Positions 9,842 through 20,769 of a stretch of DNA of 64,000 nucleotides are shown here, in pieces. The stretch's first letter is position 1. Each line of letters opens with the position of its first letter. Both the position numbers and the translations under genes were made by a program. The stretch is from Microbispora amethystogenes (GTDB lineage: Bacteria > Actinomycetota > Actinomycetes > Streptosporangiales > Streptosporangiaceae). The DNA lies in assembly GCF_016863015.1 (NCBI RefSeq), contig NZ_BOOB01000046.1, positions 62,001-126,000 on the forward strand. The letters are read 5' to 3'. A model generated the notes under the pieces. That model was not told the DNA's origin. It made no database searches and was given only the letters and a program-made list of their open reading frames with translations.

Positions 9842-12800
9842 TTATGCCCGGAGCCGATCCAGGAGTCGCGCGCTCTGCCCGGCCCAGTAGCCGAGCTTCA
9901 GGCGGACGTGGGTCTCGTGGGCCCGGCGCGCGTGGTCCAGGGCCCGTTCGCGGTCGCCCGTCGCCTCCGCCAGCAGCGCCAGGGCCTGATGGACGGAGCC
10001 CCAGCCAGCCGTGCCGTGGCCGTGCAGGGCCAGCCGGTCCCCGTACGGCGCCAGCCTGTCGTACAGGCCAGAGGGATCGGGGACGCCGAGCTGGGCCGCC
10101 ACGTACGACCAGACGACGGCGACGAACTCCCCCGACCAGTCGTCGGGGATCGTCGTGCCCCATCGGGCGACCAGTTCCTCGGCCAGCTCGCGGTCGCCCA
10201 CGTCGAGCGCGGCGAGCACGGCTATGGGACGCAGCGGATCGTTGTGCGGCTGGGAGGCCGCCGTGACGATGTCGTCGAGGATCTCGGCGACCCTGCCCTG
10301 TCCCCGCCGGCAGGTGTAGAGCATGGTCGGCCGCACGTTGCCGAGGCCCCACATGCTGCTGTCGCCGAAGACCTCGCCGAGCTCGGCGACGAGGTCTTCG
10401 ACCTCGTCCCAGCGGCCCTCCAGGGTCAGCCGCGCCGCCTGGGCGATGCGCACCATGGCCGTCAGCTCGGCGCTCCTGACCTCCTGCAGCAGCTGCTCTG
10501 CGCGGGCCAGATCGCGGTCCCACTCGGCCAGCTCCCCCTCCCTGAACAGGCACGACATCCGGCGTACCCGGGCCACGACCTCGGCCGCCGCGGGAAGATC
10601 GGGCACCGCGAGCATCTCGTCGGCGGCGCGGCGGCGCTCGACTTCCCGCTCCGGCACCCAGGACGCGATCATGTAGTTGTTGAGCACCTGGAGGAGCAGG
10701 GCGGGGTCGCCTATCCTCCGGGCGATCTCCAGGGCCTCTACCACCATCGCCTCGCCCTCCGCCCGGCGCGGCCCGTAGTTGAGCTCGATGCCGAGAGTGC
10801 CGAGCAGCGCCGCCCGGTGGGCGTCGTCCAGCGGGCCCGCCAGCAGCTTCTCGAGCAGGGCGACCGTGTGGTCGTCGACCACGCCGTACGACCGCCAGTT
10901 CCAGACGCTGAGGGTGCCGAACACCGCCACGGCCTCCACCAGGGCCGCCCGGTCGCCGGTGTCCTCCGCCAGCCGGATGGCCTCCTCGAGTGCCGTCTGG
11001 GCCCGCAGGGCGTCCCCGACGACGCGCAGCGACCGGCCCAGCTCGATCAGCAGGCGGCACCGCCGGGCAGGGTCGCGCCTGCCGAGGGCGAGCAGCGCCT
11101 TGTCCCACAGCTCGACCGCCTCGTCGTACGCGCGCTGAGCGGTGGCCTGCCTGGCCGCCCGGGCGGCGTAGTCGACGGCCTTGTCCGCGCCGCCGACCCG
11201 CGCGGCCATGGCGAAGTGGTGGGCGAGGACGGGCAGGCGGGCCGTCCCGTCGCCGGCGGGCAGCGTCGTCGGCAGGGACTCCAGAGCCTCCGCCACGTGC
11301 AGGTGGAGCCGCGCCTTGTCGAGACGGCCGAGCCCGGCGTAGAGCGCGTCGCGCACCAGCGCGTGCGAGAAGCGGTAGTCGAAGCCGTCCGGCGCCTCGG
11401 CCAGGAGGCCCACGGCGACGGCGGGCTCCAGCAGCGACATCACCTCCTCGGCGGGGGTCCGCGTGAGCGCCTCCAGCACGTCGAGGCTGACGTCGCGGCC
11501 CAGGACGGCGGCGCGGCGCAGCAGTTCCGTGGTGGGCCCGGGCAGCCGCGCGACCCTCCTCCCGATGACCTCCATGACGCCTTCGGGCACGCCCAGCGAG
11601 GCGGCGTCGAGCCGGTGCTCGCTGCCGAGCAGCCGCAGCAGCTCGCCGAGGTAGAAGGGATTGCCGCCGGTGCGCCGGTAGAGCAGGTCGGCGAGTGCGG
11701 GGTCGGTCACGTCGTGCCGCCGCAGGAACGCCGCGACGTCCTCCGGGGTGAACGGCCTGAGCGTGAGGCGTTCGGCGCCGGGCTCGCGGGTGAGGGCGGC
11801 GAGGGCGTCACGCAGCCGCTCGGGCTCCCTGCCCGGCTCCGGCCGTACGGTGGCCAGCACCAGCACGGGCCTGCGGTGCAGCTCGGAGGCGAGGAAGCCG
11901 AGCAGCCGCAGCGAGGCCGCGTCGGCCGCGTGGAGGTCGTCCAGCACCACCAGCGTCGGTGTGCCGGACCGCGCGAGCGCGGCCAGCACTCCCTCGTACA
12001 GCTCGAAGAGCGCGGCCTCGGGGTCGGCGGGGGCGTCGGCGCCCTCGCCCGCGAGGAGCCGCGCCGCGGCCCTGCCCCGCTCCCCCAGCTCGCGCAGCGC
12101 CTGCAGCCACGGCCAGAACGGCGGGGCGGCCTCGGCCTCCACGCAACGGCCCCAGACGACCGCGACGCCGCGCGCCTCGGCCTCCTCGGCGGCGAGCTGG
12201 GCGAGCCTGGTCTTGCCGATCCCCGCCTCGCCGGTCACCAGCAGCACGCCGCCGCGTCCCCGCCGTACGGCGCCGAGCCGCTCGCCGAGACGGGCGAGCT
12301 CCTGCTCGCGGGCGATGAACGCCCCGTACGGCGACGCCGCGGGCGGTACCGGCTCGGGGGCCGGCTGGGACACCACGTGCCAGGAAGACGTTCGCAGGGA
12401 CGTTCCCTCCGCGGCCGCTCCCTGTTCAGACGGTCCCTGTTCAGACGGCCCCGGCGAGGACGGCGGCTGCGGGGACGACGCCTGCTCGAAGGACGCCTGC
12501 GGGGGCGCGTTCAGGGCCGCTTCCGGGGGCGCGGGCGCGTCCAGGGCCGCCGACTGCTCCAGCACGGCCTGCTCCAGCCGCCGCAGCTCCGGGCCGGGCT
12601 GGAGGCCCATCTCCTCGTCGAGCAGCGCGCGCACCCGGCGGAGCGCGCCTAGCGCGTCGGTCTGCCGGCCCGACCGGTAGAGGGCGAGGACGAGCAGGCT
12701 CCACAGCCGCTCGCGGTACGGGTACGCCTCGACCAGCCGCTCCAGGTCGGCCACGCAGGAGGCGCCGTCGCCCATCGCGAGCCTGGCGTCGAACCGGTCC

Positions 12801-13312
12801 TCGACCGCCACCGCCCGCAGTTCGCCCAGGCGCGCGATGACGGGCTGGGCGAACTCGTAGGCCGCGAACTCGGCGAGCGGCTCGCCCCGCCAGGTCTCCA
12901 GCGCGCGGTCGAGCAGCCCGAGCGCGGCGGCGTGCTCGCGCCGGCCGAGCGCCTTGCGGCCGTCCTCCACCCAGGAGACGAAGCGCGCCAGGTCGACCCG
13001 GATCGGCGCGACCGACAGCAGGTAGCCGGGCTCGCGGGTGAGCAGCACAGCCGGGGGCGTCCGCGGCCTGCGTCCCGGTTCCAGCGCCTTGCGCAGGTTC
13101 GAGACGTACGACTGGAGCGTCGCGGTGGCGCTGGAGGGCGGCTCGCCGGCCCACAGCTCGTCGATCAGCCGGTCGAGGGAGACGATCCTGCCGGGGTCCA
13201 GGGCGAGGACGGCGAGCACCGCCCGCTGCTTGCGCGGGCCGAGGTCGAGGACCCGGCCGTCGCCGTCGATCACCTCGAAGGGGCCGAGCAGCCGGAAGGA
13301 CAGCGAGTTCAT
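9842..13312 (-). CDS. BTAD-AAA+ (SARP/AfsR-like) large transcriptional activator, copy 1
   Basis: A protein of 1156 residues from the ATG at 13310-13312, a GGAG-preceded start just before FRLLGPFEV. The longer upstream frame would overlap the divergent gene. Residues 1-95 are an OmpR-type winged helix, 100-250 the bacterial transcriptional activation domain, and 255-330 a Pro/Ser/Gln linker with a SEQGPSEQG repeat. The AAA+/NTPase module has Walker A GEAGIGKT at 361-368 and Walker B VVLDDLHAAD at 455-464. The remaining 600 residues are helical repeats of TPR type. Such regulators usually activate adjacent genes after a signal acts on the ATPase-TPR part. It is divergent from an FAD oxidase and closely resembles the second copy at 15030-18386. 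Confidence 0.88.
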   Translation of the reverse strand: MNSLSFRLLGPFEVIDGDGRVLDLGPRKQRAVLAVLALDPGRIVSLDRLIDELWAGEPPSSATATLQSYVSNLRKALEPGRRPRTPPAVLLTREPGYLLSVAPIRVDLARFVSWVEDGRKALGRREHAAALGLLDRALETWRGEPLAEFAAYEFAQPVIARLGELRAVAVEDRFDARLAMGDGASCVADLERLVEAYPYRERLWSLLVLALYRSGRQTDALGALRRVRALLDEEMGLQPGPELRRLEQAVLEQSAALDAPAPPEAALNAPPQASFEQASSPQPPSSPGPSEQGPSEQGAAAEGTSLRTSSWHVVSQPAPEPVPPAASPYGAFIAREQELARLGERLGAVRRGRGGVLLVTGEAGIGKTRLAQLAAEEAEARGVAVVWGRCVEAEAAPPFWPWLQALRELGERGRAAARLLAGEGADAPADPEAALFELYEGVLAALARSGTPTLVVLDDLHAADAASLRLLGFLASELHRRPVLVLATVRPEPGREPERLRDALAALTREPGAERLTLRPFTPEDVAAFLRRHDVTDPALADLLYRRTGGNPFYLGELLRLLGSEHRLDAASLGVPEGVMEVIGRRVARLPGPTTELLRRAAVLGRDVSLDVLEALTRTPAEEVMSLLEPAVAVGLLAEAPDGFDYRFSHALVRDALYAGLGRLDKARLHLHVAEALESLPTTLPAGDGTARLPVLAHHFAMAARVGGADKAVDYAARAARQATAQRAYDEAVELWDKALLALGRRDPARRCRLLIELGRSLRVVGDALRAQTALEEAIRLAEDTGDRAALVEAVAVFGTLSVWNWRSYGVVDDHTVALLEKLLAGPLDDAHRAALLGTLGIELNYGPRRAEGEAMVVEALEIARRIGDPALLLQVLNNYMIASWVPEREVERRRAADEMLAVPDLPAAAEVVARVRRMSCLFREGELAEWDRDLARAEQLLQEVRSAELTAMVRIAQAARLTLEGRWDEVEDLVAELGEVFGDSSMWGLGNVRPTMLYTCRRGQGRVAEILDDIVTAASQPHNDPLRPIAVLAALDVGDRELAEELVARWGTTIPDDWSGEFVAVVWSYVAAQLGVPDPSGLYDRLAPYGDRLALHGHGTAGWGSVHQALALLAEATGDRERALDHARRAHETHVRLKLGYWAGQSARLLDRLRA

Positions 13313-13465
13313 GACGACGTGCTCCGATCGCTCTCCTGTGACCGCCGCGTGTAAGCGTAAAGCCGGGACAGGCCCAACCGGAACGGTCCATTCGGGACGC
13401 CACTTGGGGGCGACTTGGACGGTCTTCAAGCGGCGCTCATACCCGCCCCAATCCTCGTGTTCCAC

Positions 13466-13499
13466 GGTGGTTCCGCAGGGTGGTTCCGCACGGGGAACC
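13466..13499. promoter_or_regulatory. direct repeat and inverted repeat between regulator 1 and FAD oxidase 1
   Basis: GGTGGTTCCGCA occurs at 13466-13477 and again at 13479-13490, a 13-base period. The second copy overlaps the inverted repeat GGTTCC (13482-13487) and GGAACC (13494-13499). All lie 22-55 bases upstream of the oxidase ATG. SARP-type activators bind direct repeats near promoters, so this is a good operator candidate, although SARP boxes are usually spaced by about 11 or 22 bases. Confidence 0.4.
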
Positions 13500-13520
13500 C
13501 ACACATGTGGAGGGGAAGAC

Positions 13521-14885
13521 ATGAACCAGATCGAGGCGCTCGGCGCCGATCTCCGCCGGGTGGTGCGCGGCCGGGTGCTGACGCGCGGCGACGAGGGCTT
13601 CGACGGCGCCCGCCGCCCCTGGGACCTGGCCGTCGACCAGCGGGTCGCGGCGGTCGTCGAGGCGCGGGACGCCCAGGACGTCGCGGCCGTGGTCGGCTAC
13701 GCGGGGCTCGCCGGGCTGCGCGTCGCCACCCAGCCGAACGGGCACGCCCCCGCCGCCTTCGACGACGCGATCCTGCTGCGTACGGGGAACCTGCGGGGGC
13801 TCACCGTACGCCCCGGGGAGCGGGCGGCGCGGGTGGAGGCCGGTGTCTCGTGGGGCGAGGTGCTGACGGCGGCCGGAGAACACGGGCTGACGCCGCTGGC
13901 GGGCAGCACGGGGGTCGTCAGCGCCACCGGCTTCACCCTGGGCGGCGGCCTGGGCTGGTTCGGGCGCAAATACGGCTTCGCCGCCGACAGTGTGCGGGCC
14001 TTCGAGGTCGTGGACGCCTCCGGCGAGCAGGCGACCGTCACGGCGGACAGCGACCCGGAGCTGTTCTGGGCGCTGCGCGGCGGCGGCGGCGACTTCGCCG
14101 TGGTGACCGCGATGGAGCTCGACCTGCACCCGGCGCCCGTGCTGTACGGCGGGCGGATCCTGTGGCCGGCGAGGCGGGCCGCGGAGGTGCTGGCCGCCTT
14201 CCGCGCCGTCACGGCGGAGGCGCCCGAGGAGCTGACCGTCTGGTTCCACCTGCTGCAGTTCCCGCCGCTGCCCGAGCTGCCCGAGCCGCTGCGCGGCCTG
14301 TCGGCGGTGACGGTCGACGTCACCTATCTCGGCGACCCGGACGAGGCGCGGGCCCTGCTGCACCGGTTCGACCTGATTCCCGGCCCGATCTTCGACACGC
14401 GCGGCCGGATGCCGGTGGCGAACCTCGCGGACATCTGCGCGGAGCCGACCGATCCGACGCCCGCGCTGCTGCGCGCCGAACTGCTCCACGGGCTCGACGA
14501 CGCCACCGCGGCGGCGATGCTGGCCGCCGCCGGGCCCGGCACCGTCGCGCCGCTCGCCTCCGTGCAGATCCGCCACCTCGGCGGGGCGCTCGCCCGGGTG
14601 GACGAGAAGGGCGGGGCCTGCGGCCACATCGCGGAGCCGTACCTGCTGAGCGCGCTCGGCGTGCTCGCGGCGCCCGGCATGGAGGAGGCGATCCGGGAGC
14701 GGCAGTCGGCCGTCGCCGCGGCGGTGGCGGGGGCCGCGAGCGGCCGCAGGCCCTTCACCTTCCTCGGCCACGGCGAGCCGGCCGCGTCCGCCTTCCCCGC
14801 CGAGGTCCTGGCTCGCCTGCGCGAGATCAAGCGCCGCCGCGACCCGGACGGCGTGCTCACCGGCAACCACCCCGTCCTCGGGTGA
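13521..14885 (+). CDS. FAD-binding oxidoreductase, berberine-bridge-enzyme type, copy 1
   Basis: A 454-residue flavoenzyme of the FAD_binding_4/BBE family. The ATG at 13521 follows GGAGGGGAAG. The FAD domain spans about residues 35-205. QPNGHAP puts His75 at the usual site of 8-alpha-histidyl FAD attachment, although the preceding motif is NGH rather than GGH. FTLGGGLGWFGRKYG (139-152) and DPELFWALRGGGGDF are typical. The C-terminal BBE segment is RRRDPDGVLTGNHPV. Substrate unknown; relatives oxidise sugars, alkaloids and antibiotic intermediates. No signal peptide, so probably cytoplasmic. It is divergent from regulator 1 and has a second copy at 18540-19895. A G-rich tandem repeat begins at its stop codon. 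Confidence 0.86.
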   Translation: MNQIEALGADLRRVVRGRVLTRGDEGFDGARRPWDLAVDQRVAAVVEARDAQDVAAVVGYAGLAGLRVATQPNGHAPAAFDDAILLRTGNLRGLTVRPGERAARVEAGVSWGEVLTAAGEHGLTPLAGSTGVVSATGFTLGGGLGWFGRKYGFAADSVRAFEVVDASGEQATVTADSDPELFWALRGGGGDFAVVTAMELDLHPAPVLYGGRILWPARRAAEVLAAFRAVTAEAPEELTVWFHLLQFPPLPELPEPLRGLSAVTVDVTYLGDPDEARALLHRFDLIPGPIFDTRGRMPVANLADICAEPTDPTPALLRAELLHGLDDATAAAMLAAAGPGTVAPLASVQIRHLGGALARVDEKGGACGHIAEPYLLSALGVLAAPGMEEAIRERQSAVAAAVAGAASGRRPFTFLGHGEPAASAFPAEVLARLREIKRRRDPDGVLTGNHPVLG

Positions 14886-15010
14886 CGGGGACTGGGGTGA
14901 CGGGGACTGGGGTGATGGGGACTTGGGATGACGGGGACTGGGGGGACGGGGACTTGGGATGACGGGGACTGGGGGGACGGGGGTGGGGGGACGGGGACTG
15001 GGGGGACGGG
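14883..15010 (+). repeat. G-rich 15/16-bp tandem repeat starting at the oxidase stop codon
   Basis: About eight units built on TGACGGGGACTGGGG (14883-14897, 14898-14912, then variants with TTGGGA or an extra G) fill the gap between two convergent genes. The first unit begins with the TGA stop of FAD oxidase 1. Each unit has at least two runs of three or more G on the plus strand, so G-quadruplex formation is possible. It may also act as a convergent transcription barrier. Units differ by substitutions and one-base indels, as expected from slippage. Confidence 0.85.
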
Positions 15011-15029
15011 AGCCGCGGGTGAGGCGGGC

Positions 15030-18000
15030 TCAGCCGTCCAGCTCGGCGAGGAGACGCGCGCTCCGCCCCGCCCAGTGGTCCAGGCCCAGGCTCAGGTGCG
15101 TCTCGTGCGCCCGCCGCGCGTGACGCAGGGTGAGGTCGCGGCCGCCCGTGGCGTCCGCGAGTTCGGCCAGGACCAGGTGGGTCGAGCCCCATCCGGCGCC
15201 GCCCATGCCGCTCACCACGAGCCTTTCCCCGTACGGCGCGAGCCTGCGGTAAAGGGCGGCGGGATCGGGCACGCCGAGCCGGGCGGCGAGGTGGCCCCAC
15301 ACGACGACGAGGAACTCGGTGGTCCAGTCGTCGCGGATCTCCCCGCCCCAGCGTTCCGCCAGCCTACGGGCGAGGGCGGGGTCGCCCGCGTCGAGGGCGG
15401 CCAGCGCGGCGACCGGACGCAGCGGCACCATGTCGGGGTCGTGCGCCCGGGACACGAGCCGGTCGGCCACCTCCCCCACCCGGCCCTGCTCGCGGCGGCA
15501 GGTGTAGAGGGTGATCATGCCGGGATAGTCGAGGCCCCACATGCTGAAACCCGCGATCAGCGAGGTGAACTCGTCCGCGAGACGTTCGGCCGCGGCCCAG
15601 TCGCCCCGCATCGTGCGGCCGGCGGCCTCGGCGATGCGGGCCATCCCGGTCAGCTCGGGCCGCCTGATCTCGTCCGTCAGCCGCGTGCAGCGGGCCAGGT
15701 CGCGGTCCCACTCCGCGAGCTCGCCCGCCCGCAGCAGGTGGGCCATGCGGAAGACGCGGGCGACGGCCTCCTCCGCCGGGCCCAGGGGCAGGGCGAGCAT
15801 CTCCTCGACCGCGCGGCGGCGCTCGTCCTCCCTCTCGGAAACCCAGGCGGCGACCAGGTAGTTGTTGAGCGAGCGGGCCAGCAGGCGGGGGTCGCCGGTG
15901 CGGCGGGCCAGCCGCACGCCGTCGGCCGCCAGCCGCTCCCCCTCGGCTCTGCGCGGGGAGTAGTACAGCTCCATACCGAGGGTGCCCAGCAGGGTGGCGC
16001 GCTCCACGTCGCCGAGCGGCTCCCGCAGCAGGCGCTCCAGCAGGGCCACCGTCTCGCCGTCCACGACGCCGTAGTGGCGCCAGTTCCACACCGACATGCC
16101 GCCGAACGCGGTGACGGCCTCGATCAGCGTCGCGCGCTCGCCGATTCCCGCGGCGAGCACGATCGCCTCCTCCAGCGCCTTCCTCCCCCCGGCGACGTCG
16201 CCGACCACGCGCAGCGCCTCGCCTCGGCGCACCAGCAGCGCGCAGCGCCGGGCGGGGTCCCCCGAACCGAGCGCGTCGACGGCCCTGCCCCACCAGTCCG
16301 CCGCCTCGTCGTACGCGCAGCGGGCCGCGGCCTGCCGGGCGGCCCGGACGGCGTACTCCACGGCCTTGGCGGCGCCGCCCGCCCGGGAGGCCGCCACGAA
16401 GTGGTGCGCGAGGACGGACACCTCCACGCCGGGAAGGCTCTCCAGCGCCTCTCCGGCGCGCAGGTGCAGCCGCGCCGCGCGCGCCCGGCCGAGACCCGCG
16501 TAGAGGGCGTCGCGCACGAGGGCGTGTGAGAACCGGTAGTCGAAGCCGCCGGGCACCTCGACGAGCAGGCCCGTCGCCACGGCCGGTTCGAGGCGCAGCA
16601 TCACCTCCTCAGCGCCCAGGCCGCAGGCGGTCTCCAGCGCGTCGAAGCTCACCTCCCGGCCGAGCACGGCGGCCGTCTCCAGCAGCGCGCGGGTCTCCTC
16701 CGGCAGCCGTCCGACGCGGCGGCCGATGACCTCGCGCACGCCCTCGGGGACGCCGAGGGACGCGGCGTCCAGCCGGTGCTCGCTGTCCAGCAGCCGGATC
16801 AGCTCGCCCAGGTAGAAGGGGTTGCCCCCGGTGCGCTCGTGGAGCAGCGCGGCGAGCCGCCCGTCCGGCAGCTCCCGCCCGGCGAGGTAGGCGGCGACGT
16901 CCTCCCGCGTGAACGGCGGCAGCGTGAGCCGCTCCACGCCGCGTTCGCGGGCGAGCGCGGCCAGCGTGTCGCGGAGCTGCTCGGGGTCGCCGCCGGGCTC
17001 GGGACGGATCGTCGCCAGCACCAGCACCGGCGCCCGGTGCAGCTCCCCGGCCGCGAAGGCGAGCAGGCGCAGGGACGACGCGTCGGCCCAGTGCAGGTCG
17101 TCGAGGACGAGCAGCGCCGGACCCGCCGCCCCCAGCACGGCGGTCACGCGTTCGTGCAGCTCGAACAGGACCCTGCGGGGGTCGTCGCCGCCCTCCGCGT
17201 CGGCCGGGGCGTCATCGGGAGGGCCTCCGGACAGGGCGGCGAGCGCCTCCGCCACGTCCGCCCGCCGGTCCCGGCCGAGGTCGCGCAGGACTCCCAGCCA
17301 GGGCCAGAACGCGGGTGCGCCGGTGTCCTCCGCGCAGCGGCCCCAGGCGACCGTCATCCCCAGGGCGGCCGCCTCGCCGGCCGCCGCCTCGGCGAGACGG
17401 GTCTTGCCGATGCCCGCCTCCCCGGCGACCAGCAGCACGCCGCCGCGCCCCCGCCGCGCCTCGGCGAGCCGGGTGGCGACGCGGCCGGTCTGCTCGCGCC
17501 GGGCGACGAGCCCGGCGTGGACGACCGGCACCGACGTCGTCCCGGGCGGCACCACCGTCGTCCCGACCGGCACCGCCGCCCCCGGCTCGGCGGGCGGGGT
17601 GAGGAGGGCGGGCCCGGCGCCGTCGAGCTCGGGCGCCTGGCCGAAGACGGCCTGCTCCAGCCGGCGCAGCTCGGGGCCGGGCTCCAGGCCCAGCTCCCCG
17701 TCCAGCAGCGCCCGGACCCTGCGCAGCGCCGCGAGGGCGTCGGCCTGCCGGCCCGACCGGTAGAGGGCGAGCACGAGCAGTCCCCACAGCCGTTCCCGGT
17801 ACGGGTGATCCTCCACCAGGCGTTCGAGGTCGGGCACGCACGACGCCGCGTCACCGAGCGCCAGCCGGGCCTCGAACCAGTCCTCTGTCACGGCGGCCCG
17901 CAGCTCCGCCAGTCGCGCGACCACCGGCCGGCCGAACTCGTACGCCGTGAACTCGGCGAGCGGCTCGCCGCGCCACGTCTCCAGGGAGCGGCGCAGCAGG

Positions 18001-18386
18001 TCGGCCGCCTCGCCGGGCGCGCCCCTCGCCAGCATCCGGCGGCCGTCCTCGGCCAGCGCGGCGAAGCGGGCCAGGTCCACCTGGCCCGGCGCGATGGCCA
18101 GCAGGTAGCCGGGCTCGCGGGTGAGCAGGACCCGCGGCGGCGTGCGCGGCGCCCTGCCGGGCTCCAGCGCCCGGCGAAGCTGGGAGATGTACGCCTGCAG
18201 GGTCCCGGTGGCGCTGGCGGGCGCCTCCCCCGACCACAGTTCGTCGATGAGGCGATCGAGCGAGACGACGCGTCCGGGTTCCAGGGCGAGCATGGCCAGC
18301 ACGGCGCGCCGCTTGGGGGTGCCGACGTCGACGGCACGGCCGGACGAGTCGACGACCTCCAGCGGGCCGAACAGGCGAAAGTCCAT
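15030..18386 (-). CDS. BTAD-AAA+ (SARP/AfsR-like) large transcriptional activator, copy 2
   Basis: 1118 residues from the ATG at 18384-18386, preceded by GGGGAAAA. Architecture matches copy 1: winged helix (1-95), BTAD (100-245), a shorter Pro/Val linker (255-290), Walker A GEAGIGKT at 322-329, Walker B LLVLDDLHWADASSLRLL, then TPR-type repeats to a common end (HARRAHETHLSLGLDHWAGR). Long blocks are near-identical to copy 1, for example SLDRLIDELW and LTREPGYLL, so the pair is a duplication. The linker and ATPase loops have diverged most, consistent with different signals or targets. It is divergent from FAD oxidase 2, with two inverted repeats in the shared 153-base gap. Confidence 0.88.
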   Translation of the reverse strand: MDFRLFGPLEVVDSSGRAVDVGTPKRRAVLAMLALEPGRVVSLDRLIDELWSGEAPASATGTLQAYISQLRRALEPGRAPRTPPRVLLTREPGYLLAIAPGQVDLARFAALAEDGRRMLARGAPGEAADLLRRSLETWRGEPLAEFTAYEFGRPVVARLAELRAAVTEDWFEARLALGDAASCVPDLERLVEDHPYRERLWGLLVLALYRSGRQADALAALRRVRALLDGELGLEPGPELRRLEQAVFGQAPELDGAGPALLTPPAEPGAAVPVGTTVVPPGTTSVPVVHAGLVARREQTGRVATRLAEARRGRGGVLLVAGEAGIGKTRLAEAAAGEAAALGMTVAWGRCAEDTGAPAFWPWLGVLRDLGRDRRADVAEALAALSGGPPDDAPADAEGGDDPRRVLFELHERVTAVLGAAGPALLVLDDLHWADASSLRLLAFAAGELHRAPVLVLATIRPEPGGDPEQLRDTLAALARERGVERLTLPPFTREDVAAYLAGRELPDGRLAALLHERTGGNPFYLGELIRLLDSEHRLDAASLGVPEGVREVIGRRVGRLPEETRALLETAAVLGREVSFDALETACGLGAEEVMLRLEPAVATGLLVEVPGGFDYRFSHALVRDALYAGLGRARAARLHLRAGEALESLPGVEVSVLAHHFVAASRAGGAAKAVEYAVRAARQAAARCAYDEAADWWGRAVDALGSGDPARRCALLVRRGEALRVVGDVAGGRKALEEAIVLAAGIGERATLIEAVTAFGGMSVWNWRHYGVVDGETVALLERLLREPLGDVERATLLGTLGMELYYSPRRAEGERLAADGVRLARRTGDPRLLARSLNNYLVAAWVSEREDERRRAVEEMLALPLGPAEEAVARVFRMAHLLRAGELAEWDRDLARCTRLTDEIRRPELTGMARIAEAAGRTMRGDWAAAERLADEFTSLIAGFSMWGLDYPGMITLYTCRREQGRVGEVADRLVSRAHDPDMVPLRPVAALAALDAGDPALARRLAERWGGEIRDDWTTEFLVVVWGHLAARLGVPDPAALYRRLAPYGERLVVSGMGGAGWGSTHLVLAELADATGGRDLTLRHARRAHETHLSLGLDHWAGRSARLLAELDG

Positions 18387-18405
18387 TTTTCCCCATAAGA
18401 GCGGA

Positions 18406-18435
18406 GGGTCCGGTTCGTAGCGTATTGCCGGACCC
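18406..18435. promoter_or_regulatory. 8-bp perfect inverted repeat upstream of regulator 2
   Basis: GGGTCCGG (18406-18413) faces CCGGACCC (18428-18435) with a 14-base spacer, giving 22 bases centre to centre, two helical turns. It lies 20 bases from the regulator start in the divergent promoter region, a likely operator for self-control or for the divergent pair. Confidence 0.5.
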
Positions 18436-18497
18436 GCCACCGCACGAACAGCGCGCGACTAGCCGTCTCCTAATCGACCGCAAGCCTTCCCTCGCAG

Positions 18498-18523
18498 GAT
18501 GTTCTCCGACTCCCCGGAACATC
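18498..18523. promoter_or_regulatory. 7-bp perfect inverted repeat just upstream of FAD oxidase 2
   Basis: GATGTTC (18498-18504) faces GAACATC (18517-18523) across 12 bases, ending 16 bases before the oxidase ATG. A TTC/GAA-type inverted repeat also lies upstream of FAD oxidase 1 (13482-13499), so the two promoters may share a regulator-binding logic. Confidence 0.45.
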
Positions 18524-18539
18524 GAGCGGAAGGACGAGC

Positions 18540-19895
18540 ATGTCTACCTTGGAAAGCGATCTGCGGCGGATGGTGCGCGGCCAGGTCCACGTGCCCGGCG
18601 ACCCGATCTTCGAGACCGCCCGGCTGCCCTGGAACCGAGCGGTCGACCAGCGGGTCCGGGCGGTCGTGGAGATCGAGGACGCGGCCGACGCCGCCGTCGT
18701 CGTCCGGCACGCGGCGCTCGCGGGTTTGGCCGTGGCGGCGCAGCCGGGCGGGCACGGCGCCACGACCAGCCTGGACGGGACGATCCTGGTGCGCACCGGC
18801 CGGCTGCGCGGTATCGAGGTCGATCCGGAGCGCCGTGTCGCCAGAGTCGGGGCCGGCGTGCAGTGGGGCGAGCTGCTCACGGCGACGGGCAAACACGGGC
18901 TGACGGGCCTGCCCGGAAGCTCCCCCGTGGTGAGCGTCGTGGGCTACACCCTCGGCGGCGGGTTGAGCTGGTTCGCCCGCAGGTACGGCTGGGCCGCCGA
19001 CGGCGTGCGCGCCTTCGAGACGGTCGGCGCCGACGGCGTGCCCGCCCGCGTCACGGCCGACTCCGACCCCGACCTGTTCTGGGCGCTGCGCGGCGGCGGC
19101 GGCGACTTCGCGCTGGTGACCGCGGTCGAGCTGGACCTGCACCCCGTGCCCCGGCTGTACGGAGGACGGATGCTGTGGCCCGCCGACCGGGCCCCCGAGC
19201 TGCTCGCCGCGTTCCGGGAGGTGACGGCCGGCGCCCCCGCGGAGCTGACCGTCTGGTTCACGATGGTGAGGTTCCCCCCGGTGCCGCAGGTCCCCGAGCC
19301 GCTGCGCGGCCTGGCCGCGGTCGCAGTGGACACGACGTTCCTCGGCGGCGAGGAGGAGGGACGCGCCCTGCTCCGGCGGTTCGAGGACGTTCCCGGCCTG
19401 CTGCTCGACAGCCGTACCGCCATGCCGCTGGACGAGCTCGGCGGCATCTGCGCCGAGCCGACGCAGCCGGTGCCCGGGGCGGGCCGCGGCGAGCTGCTGA
19501 CCGGTCTCGACGACACCGTGGCGGGCGATCTGCTCGCCGCCGTCGGCGACATCGCGCCGCTGGCGAGCGTGCAGGTGCGTCACCTGGGTGGCGCGCTGCG
19601 CCGGCCGGCCGCCGGCGGCGGCGCGTGCGGGCACATCGCCGAGCCGTACGCCCTGGGCATGATCGGGCCGATCATGTCGCCCGAGGGCGGGCGGGCGGTG
19701 CACGCGCGGCTGGCGGAGATCGCCCGCTCCGTGGCGCCGCACACGACCGGCCGCAAGCCGTTCACCTATCTCCACGCGGACGAGACCGCCGCCTCCGCGT
19801 TCGACGCGGAGACGCTGGCCCGCCTGCGCGAGATCAAGCGCCGCCGGGACCCGCACGGCGTCTTCCGCAGCAACAAGCCGGTGTCCGCCCAGTAG
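18540..19895 (+). CDS. FAD-binding oxidoreductase, berberine-bridge-enzyme type, copy 2
   Basis: A 451-residue paralogue of the oxidase at 13521-14885, from the ATG at 18540 after GGAAGGACGAGC. QPGGHGA places His72 in the canonical GGH site for covalent FAD. YTLGGGLSWFARRYG (136-150) and DPDLFWALRGGGGDF follow, and the C-terminus ends IKRRRDPHGVFRSNKPV, close to copy 1. The mid-domain (about 215-330, the substrate domain) also aligns throughout. The GGH here against NGH in copy 1 is a concrete active-site difference. The gene ends with two consecutive TAG codons. Function presumably parallels copy 1; substrate unknown. Confidence 0.86.
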   Translation: MSTLESDLRRMVRGQVHVPGDPIFETARLPWNRAVDQRVRAVVEIEDAADAAVVVRHAALAGLAVAAQPGGHGATTSLDGTILVRTGRLRGIEVDPERRVARVGAGVQWGELLTATGKHGLTGLPGSSPVVSVVGYTLGGGLSWFARRYGWAADGVRAFETVGADGVPARVTADSDPDLFWALRGGGGDFALVTAVELDLHPVPRLYGGRMLWPADRAPELLAAFREVTAGAPAELTVWFTMVRFPPVPQVPEPLRGLAAVAVDTTFLGGEEEGRALLRRFEDVPGLLLDSRTAMPLDELGGICAEPTQPVPGAGRGELLTGLDDTVAGDLLAAVGDIAPLASVQVRHLGGALRRPAAGGGACGHIAEPYALGMIGPIMSPEGGRAVHARLAEIARSVAPHTTGRKPFTYLHADETAASAFDAETLARLREIKRRRDPHGVFRSNKPVSAQ

Positions 19896-20615: not shown

Positions 20616-20724
20616 GGTCCCGATCCTCCGGCACGCGTGCGCCGGCTCCCATCAGGGAAGGCCCTAGGCCGTCCCTGGTGCGGCCCTCACGTTGACCCCC
20701 GGCCACACCCTGACGTAGCGTCGA

Positions 20725-20769
20725 TTCCACCATTCAGAATAACTTTTCCGGAGGGTGGAAATGGTGGAA
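20725..20769. promoter_or_regulatory. 10-bp perfect inverted repeat spanning the aceB start
   Basis: TTCCACCATT (20725-20734) is the exact reverse complement of AATGGTGGAA (20760-20769), which contains the aceB ATG. The ribosome-binding site GGAGGG (20750-20755) lies in the 25-base loop. In the mRNA this hairpin would sequester the start codon. In DNA, TTCC/GGAA arms also resemble IclR-type operators, and an IclR gene closes this operon. Which reading is right depends on the transcription start. Confidence 0.5.

Follow-up and report, generated by a model that had tools for sequence, protein, structure and literature searches.

Tandem divergent units of a large SARP-type regulator and a McrA-like flavin oxidase in Microbispora amethystogenes

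Results

Two regulator-oxidase units at one locus

The genome of Microbispora amethystogenes (8.13 Mb in 167 contigs) was analysed in a window of 64,000 nucleotides, at positions 9842-19895 of which two divergent gene units stand in tandem, each made up of a large transcriptional regulator on the minus strand and a flavin oxidase on the plus strand. All four open reading frames were found where an original prediction, made from the letters of the DNA, had placed them; the regulator frames (9842-13522 and 15030-18440) begin upstream of the probable gene starts indicated by codon scoring and alignment (Table 1). The two regulators are 61% identical (1167 columns) and the two oxidases 62% identical (450 columns), in agreement with the predicted repetition of one unit, in the same orientation, with both partners paralogous.

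In a Pfam search both regulators scored above cut-off for Trans_reg_C, BTAD and AAA_16, which gives them the DNA-binding, BTAD and nucleoside triphosphatase (NTPase) parts of a large Streptomyces antibiotic regulatory protein (SARP); the same search reported no tetratricopeptide repeat (TPR) family in either protein. The C-terminal 440 residues of regulator 2 were predicted to form an all-helical superhelix (pLDDT 94.1), for which the matches in the PDB were largely of TPR type (LGN, Tom71 and APC/C subunits; E about 1e-5, TM 0.15-0.64), and by this model the TPR C-terminal domain of a large SARP is present. Membership of the AfsR equivalog family was rejected, the regulators scoring 170 and 156 bits against the NCBIfam NF053617 cut-off of 1430. 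Six more full-length relatives are encoded in the same genome at 36-39% identity. When regulators 1 and 2 were compared by region, identity was 33% in the linker, 59% in the C-terminal part, 63% in the NTPase, 64% over 620-760, 71% over 470-620, 72% in the DNA-binding domain and 73% in BTAD. The regulators had been expected to diverge most in the linker and the ATPase loops; the linker is the most divergent region, and the NTPase is no more divergent than the C-terminal part.

Both oxidases contain FAD_binding_4, the PCMH domain for flavin adenine dinucleotide (FAD). They had been described as of the berberine bridge enzyme (BBE) type, an assignment that was not upheld: the Pfam BBE domain scored 20.4 against a cut-off of 20.6 in oxidase 2 and was not reported in oxidase 1. 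The closest solved structure is McrA (9R43), with homology over the full length, and the next is EncM (27-28% identity), 6-hydroxy-D-nicotine oxidase being more distant (22%). On sequence and predicted fold over the full length, the oxidases are classed as McrA/EncM-type flavin enzymes rather than true BBEs. The nearest named families are BagK/FevA1 and BagG/FevA2, with NCBIfam matches of 300-321 bits against cut-offs of 800-850; the BagK/FevA1 equivalog (NF041226) was rejected at 314 and 321 bits against 800.

The two oxidases differ in their NGH and GGH motifs, and this difference had been taken as a mark of specialisation. The histidine of the motif, which we take to be the FAD-attachment residue, is present in 88 of 88 oxidase rows, with N, S, G, T, L, Y, E, A or R two positions ahead of it; the letters are real, and with the histidine invariant and its neighbour freely variable the difference looks neutral. 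A cysteine at the third residue of GSS/GST, presumably the position for bicovalent FAD, was found in 0 of the 88 rows; four rows (L042, L091, L093 and L096) have a cysteine two residues before it.

The pair recurs in related genera

A scan anchored on oxidase 2, in which the best 80 of 114 relatives were kept, gave 78 distinct named loci. A divergent cassette regulator, whole or partial, adjoins the oxidase in 21 of them, in Microbispora, Sphaerimonospora, Herbidospora, Microtetraspora, Sphaerisporangium, Acrocarpospora, Actinomadura and Nonomuraea. This count leaves out a fragmented regulator (L098) and a weaker divergent BTAD match (L143, 133 bits); at two loci (L099 and L149) BTAD relatives lie upstream of the oxidase on the same strand. 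Of 15 genomes of the genus, 12 have oxidase 2 (at least 79% identity) and eight have oxidase 1 (61-63% to oxidase 2).

The survey was also made from the regulator side in 120 genomes of the family (E 1e-210 or better, six candidates scored per genome), and 27 close regulators were found in 19 genomes. Twenty-five of these adjoin an oxidase, with or without a small frame, and both surveys bear out the expectation that regulator and oxidase are recurrent neighbours. The exceptions are the regulator on C31 of genome G002, which seems to reach a contig end, and the one on C90 of genome G041, with no oxidase beside it. The latter (L206:5712-9014) is a cassette-type regulator downstream of a gene that by eye is MFS-like; the G041 genome also has an oxidase without a regulator (L088), and 11-bp repeats still score in the promoter of that oxidase. 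The oxidase was found in 47 of the 120 genomes at E 1e-105, so that the enzyme is commoner than the pair.

Regulator and oxidase descend together

In the oxidase tree (88 rows), a group of 13 rows (100/99) holds Microbispora oxidase 1 together with Microtetraspora, Sphaerisporangium, Herbidospora and Acrocarpospora, and a group of 10 rows (100/100) holds oxidase 2 together with Sphaerimonospora; copy-2-like rows of Herbidospora and Acrocarpospora form a separate group that is not firmly placed (fork 88/87). In the regulator trees, Microtetraspora joins copy 1 (100/100), and Sphaerimonospora and Herbidospora join copy 2 (99/99). The base of regulator clade 1 received 48/61 in the careful tree, built without the distant outgroup, against 97 in the quick tree with it. 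The quick tree omits regulators under 451 aa or 400 bits, and the careful tree omits L098, L099, L100 and six distant regulators of the same genome. A Microbispora-specific duplication of the regulator was rejected, a forced clade of regulators 1 and 2 costing 359 log units (approximately unbiased test, p-AU 1.4e-65; regulators only).

Distances between partners were correlated (Mantel r 0.906, 25 pairs), the best of 2000 permutations, which ignore relatedness, giving 0.366, and r fell to 0.763 when partners were swapped in five two-copy genomes. Omitted from this test were five of 30 divergent regions with partial or broken regulators (L080 unit 1, L092, L096 unit 2, L100 and L111), at loci counted in the 21 above. 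Because the partner trees broadly match, the forced clade is rejected and the distances correlate, the whole unit was most likely copied before Microbispora arose. The predicted copying of regulator and oxidase together therefore stands; the duplication is not recent, each copy having nearer kin in other genera. Read from an HflX-like gene beside the units, the order is 1 then 2 in Microbispora and 2 then 1 in Herbidospora, and a rearrangement or a more complex history is therefore likely.

The shared promoters carry 11-bp repeats

In the available passages of a study of AfsR (PMC10936776), SARP sites are described as direct repeats 11 or 22 bp apart, the last repeat standing 8 bp from the -10. 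Candidate elements of both window promoters are listed in Table 1.

Table 1 Genes and candidate promoter elements of the tandem units (window coordinates)
Feature	Position	Strand	Remarks
Regulator 1	13312-9842 (9842..13312)	-	1156 aa; OmpR-like DNA-binding domain, BTAD, AAA_16 NTPase, helical TPR-like C-terminal part
AAGCGTA on + (TACGCT on -)	13353..13359	-	probable -10 of regulator 1 (putative function)
ACTTGG-N5-ACTTGG	13401..13421		two units 11 bp apart; minus-strand reading faces regulator 1
TTCAAGC/CTCATAC/CCCAATC	13425..13453	+	11-bp-spaced array of three weak units, oriented towards oxidase 1; by eye
CACGGT	13463..13468	+	possible -10 of oxidase 1, from spacing only
Oxidase 1	13521-14885	+	454 aa; FAD_binding_4; McrA/EncM-like
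Regulator 2	18386-15030 (15030..18386)	-	1118 aa; architecture as in regulator 1
TAGCGTATT on +	18418..18426	-	probable -10 region of regulator 2, resembling that of copy 1 (putative function)
CTAGCCG/CTAATCG/CAAGCCT	18459..18487	+	11-bp-spaced array of three units, oriented towards oxidase 2; p 0.12 for the window region by itself
CAGGAT	18495..18500	+	possible -10 of oxidase 2, 7 bp past last repeat unit
Oxidase 2	18540-19895	+	451 aa; model fits McrA 9R43 (TM 0.90/0.92, 36% identity)

The best three-unit score at period 11 had a mean z of 2.47 over 28 regions, and periods 7-10 and 12-20 gave values between -0.46 and 0.62. Against a cleaner control, the period-11 mean was 2.70 in pair regions (n=25) and 0.42 in other divergent regions of the same loci (n=159), which scored 0.16-0.30 at periods 9, 10, 12 and 13; this control replaced a first set (63 regions, period-11 mean z 0.86) from which cassette regions had been poorly excluded. 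Oxidase regions without a regulator averaged 0.34 (n=18), though L101 scored 2.6 and L088 2.4. For these tests a regulator remnant (L111) was excluded, the third unit described below was trimmed to its last 260 bp, and L113 was too short for the period-11 mean. In a simpler scan copy 2 and other loci peaked at period 11, and Microbispora copy 1 at 10 and 11. A regular expression for the spacing to the -10 was set aside after matching 3 of 13 regions. The 11-bp direct repeats expected in the target promoter of a large SARP are present over the set of regions; in the window copies taken singly they are not significant.

The repeat units in Microbispora are ACTTGG in copy 1, CTAGCCG/CTAATCG in copy 2 and CTTGG/CTAGG in the third unit; Actinomadura and Nonomuraea have CCCAGCTCGAC-like units, Sphaerimonospora has CTCCTAATCGG-like arrays and G072 has three CTAGGA units. 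With up to 2 mismatches allowed, the full copy-1 operator pattern matched once in the genome (reversed-pattern control, 1), and so did the full copy-2 pattern with up to 3 allowed (control, 0). The probable regulator -10, AGCGTA, occurs in 6 of 6 Microbispora copy-1 regions; of seven copy-2 regions (six from Microbispora and one from Sphaerimonospora) five have it, L081 and L082 being the exceptions.

Bases are contacted in AfsR by T88 and R92, according to the passages available (PMC10936776). At the positions aligned with these, regulator 1 has S and N and regulator 2 has A and Q, and the R92 position divides the regulator clades, with N or H in clade 1 and Q in clade 2. A recognition-helix code was rejected: the R92 position does not follow the operators in the third unit, no code holds across all units, and the pattern is suggestive only.

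As a separate observation, among the six control regions that scored highest for 11-bp repeats, four (L087:12070-12229, L088:10124-10287, L090:12040-12187 and L093:13445-13590) lie, by gene order, upstream of malate synthase. This may be another SARP-type operator; the window counterpart (20616-20760) was assessed by reading.

A third unit and other regulator arrangements

The picture of two copies proved incomplete, since a third paralogous unit lies on contig C14 of the same genome, its regulator 53% and its oxidase 39% identical to those of copy 2. A small reading frame stands between the two genes; it matched no Pfam family, and its GNAT-like appearance by eye is a guess only. Of ten third-unit oxidase loci in other Microbispora genomes (L160-L169), seven retain all three genes (oxidase, small frame and regulator), one stops at a contig end and two are without the regulator; an eleventh locus (L170) held a more distant oxidase. 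In three Herbidospora genomes (g34) the third regulator directly faces its oxidase, so the direct divergent order may be the older one. The middle repeat retains its CTAG in 9 of 9 genomes with the small-frame/regulator side (in L162 the contig breaks off within the small frame) and has lost it in 2 of 2 that are without the regulator side, perhaps in one event. By eye, two separate 11-bp arrays of opposite direction lie between the third-unit oxidase and the small frame in G072 (L205:4915-5219), which suggests a two-sided operator.

Two further arrangements were seen in the same genome. On contig C37 (L044:5652-14287) two large BTAD regulators stand in tandem, each followed by a hemerythrin-HHE gene; an F420H2_quin_red family gene comes next, making this a second duplicated arrangement with redox partners. 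On contig C7 (L047:5975-10990) a large BTAD regulator lies between an HHE gene and an F420H2_quin_red plus hemerythrin-domain gene, all on one strand.

Discussion

A probable self-contained circuit, duplicated whole

We consider it likely that each unit is a self-contained inducible circuit of one activator and one enzyme, which was duplicated whole and whose copies diverged in the operator. From the observed pairing, co-descent and 11-bp repeats, and from the modelled enzyme fold and helical superhelix, we infer binding, activation, autoregulation and the direction of the arrays. The NTPase and the helical C-terminal part would restrain the N-terminal activator domain until a ligand or partner is sensed; the released SARP part would then bind the 11-bp direct repeats in the shared promoter, and recruit RNA polymerase to the oxidase promoter, probably also to the regulator's own. 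By analogy, inhibition and its relief could resemble those of AfsR, whose SARP part is described in the passages available (PMC10936776) as inhibited by the NTPase and TPR parts and relieved by ATP. The oxidase, a stand-alone enzyme of putative McrA/EncM type, would most likely oxidise a small redox-active or phenolic/quinol compound, perhaps as detoxification. After duplication of the whole unit before Microbispora, the operators would have split into a CTTGG type (unit 1), a CTAATCG type (unit 2) and a CTTGG/CTAGG type (third unit), which would give the copies separate specificities. The prediction that the circuits duplicated and then specialised finds its evidence of specialisation in the operators only; the FAD-motif difference looks neutral.

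Several observations weigh against this account. No such regulator was called at 57 of the 78 oxidase loci, and in several relatives the regulator is lost or decayed with the oxidase retained, so that the enzyme may be useful alone or served in trans. For period 11, p was 0.01 or less in only 11 of 29 regions, and neither window promoter is significant alone (p 0.16 and 0.12; the copy-1 region gave 0.023 in L081 and 0.037 in L087). Microbispora copy 1 scores as strongly at period 10 (z 4.9) as at period 11 (z 4.0). The AfsR R92 position is also Q in some third-unit regulators with a different operator, which leaves the protein side of specificity unexplained, and the possible role in detoxification is drawn from similarity.

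Regulator losses and alternative readings

The losses bear most directly on a less probable reading, though one to be taken seriously, in which the two copies work as a single cross-regulated system: either regulator would be able to drive both oxidases, and the duplication would serve as dosage or back-up. In G005 regulator 2 has been deleted beside an intact unit 1, and its first codons and operator (by eye) remain together with oxidase 2. Both oxidases are kept in Herbidospora mongoliensis, with only the ends of regulator 2 left, and in H. galbida, where regulator 1 is missing between them; the probable regulator -10 is common to both copies as well. Against cross-regulation, the operator units differ between the copies, and at the stringency searched each full operator pattern matches just once in the 8.13-Mb genome. 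Other losses are of several kinds: in G013 regulator 2 is broken, with its start missing and its frame disrupted; M. rosea, M. hainanensis and M. bryophytorum are without unit 1 and regulator 2, an HflX-like gene adjoining oxidase 2 (by eye; by BLAST in G001 and G009); and the third regulator has been lost in two genomes. The proposed one-enzyme, one-activator pairing recurs, yet since a regulator can be lost while its oxidase is kept, strict one-to-one control is not required everywhere.

It is unlikely that the oxidase instead serves a secondary-metabolite pathway as an orphan tailoring enzyme, with the regulators as pathway activators that have their main targets elsewhere. SARPs are described, in the passages available, as activators of biosynthetic clusters, and the nearest named families, BagK/FevA1 and BagG/FevA2, come from SARP-containing clusters; the oxidases, however, match these families far under cut-off. 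The eight flanking genes checked include no biosynthetic genes: on one side of the units they encode an HflX-like GTPase and an amidohydrolase, and across from these a DUF4097 protein, malate synthase, two FAD_binding_4 proteins, an Fe-S protein and an IclR regulator. The full operator patterns, moreover, had no second genome match (shorter two-unit sites were not searched). That the 11-bp repeats are compositional and the pairing mere inherited synteny without regulation is very improbable, for although the window repeats are weak singly and the HflX-malate synthase block is conserved in gene order among relatives, the period specificity, the controls and the pairing of the third unit at a different genome location speak against it.

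Returning to the self-contained circuit, we propose tentatively that such units are portable one-sensor, one-enzyme circuits outside biosynthetic clusters, in which a large SARP would sense a redox-active compound and switch on a McrA-like oxidase, tandem copies being insulated by operator divergence. If this is true, they form a natural series for the splitting of activator-operator specificity after duplication of a whole cassette. The available review passages treat large SARPs as switches of antibiotic clusters, and here a large-SARP cassette adjoins housekeeping-type genes. Inducer binding by the C-terminal part of AfsR is called elusive in the passages available (PMC10936776); a minimal cassette with one likely target, and with natural variants that have two or three paralogous units, operators kept or decayed and regulators lost, would offer a small system in which to test sensing and operator specificity.

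Comparison with known systems

The pairing had been thought not to be a standard described module. A literature search, with most subscription journals outside its coverage, found no report of a large SARP paired with one dedicated flavin oxidase; a qualification comes from the bag/fev, gri and nsp clusters, in which, in the passages available (PMC6692506), SARP genes occur near relatives of the oxidase.

With the large SARPs AfsR, PolY and RslR3, as described in the passages available, the Microbispora regulators share a DNA-binding domain, BTAD, NTPase, a TPR-like part (as modelled) and 11-bp direct target repeats. They differ in not being AfsR orthologues and in having one divergent enzyme neighbour, with no biosynthetic genes among the flanking genes checked. 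McrA resembles the oxidase over its full length and in its fold; its substrate is mitomycin hydroquinone, which it reconverts to the quinone for self-resistance (PMC9570651), and the passages available on McrA mention no pairing with a large SARP. EncM and 6-hydroxy-D-nicotine oxidase share the fold and sequence superfamily, but have low identity and other substrates. The nearest precedent in gene content is FevA1/FevA2, BagK/BagG, GriA and NspA with the SARPs FevR, BagI, GriR and NspR, where, in the passages available, a related FAD oxygenase and a SARP gene share one locus; there the SARP is of the BagI/FevR type (a model of 315 positions) and lies inside a biosynthetic cluster, whereas in Microbispora oxidases far below the family cut-off stand beside large SARPs.

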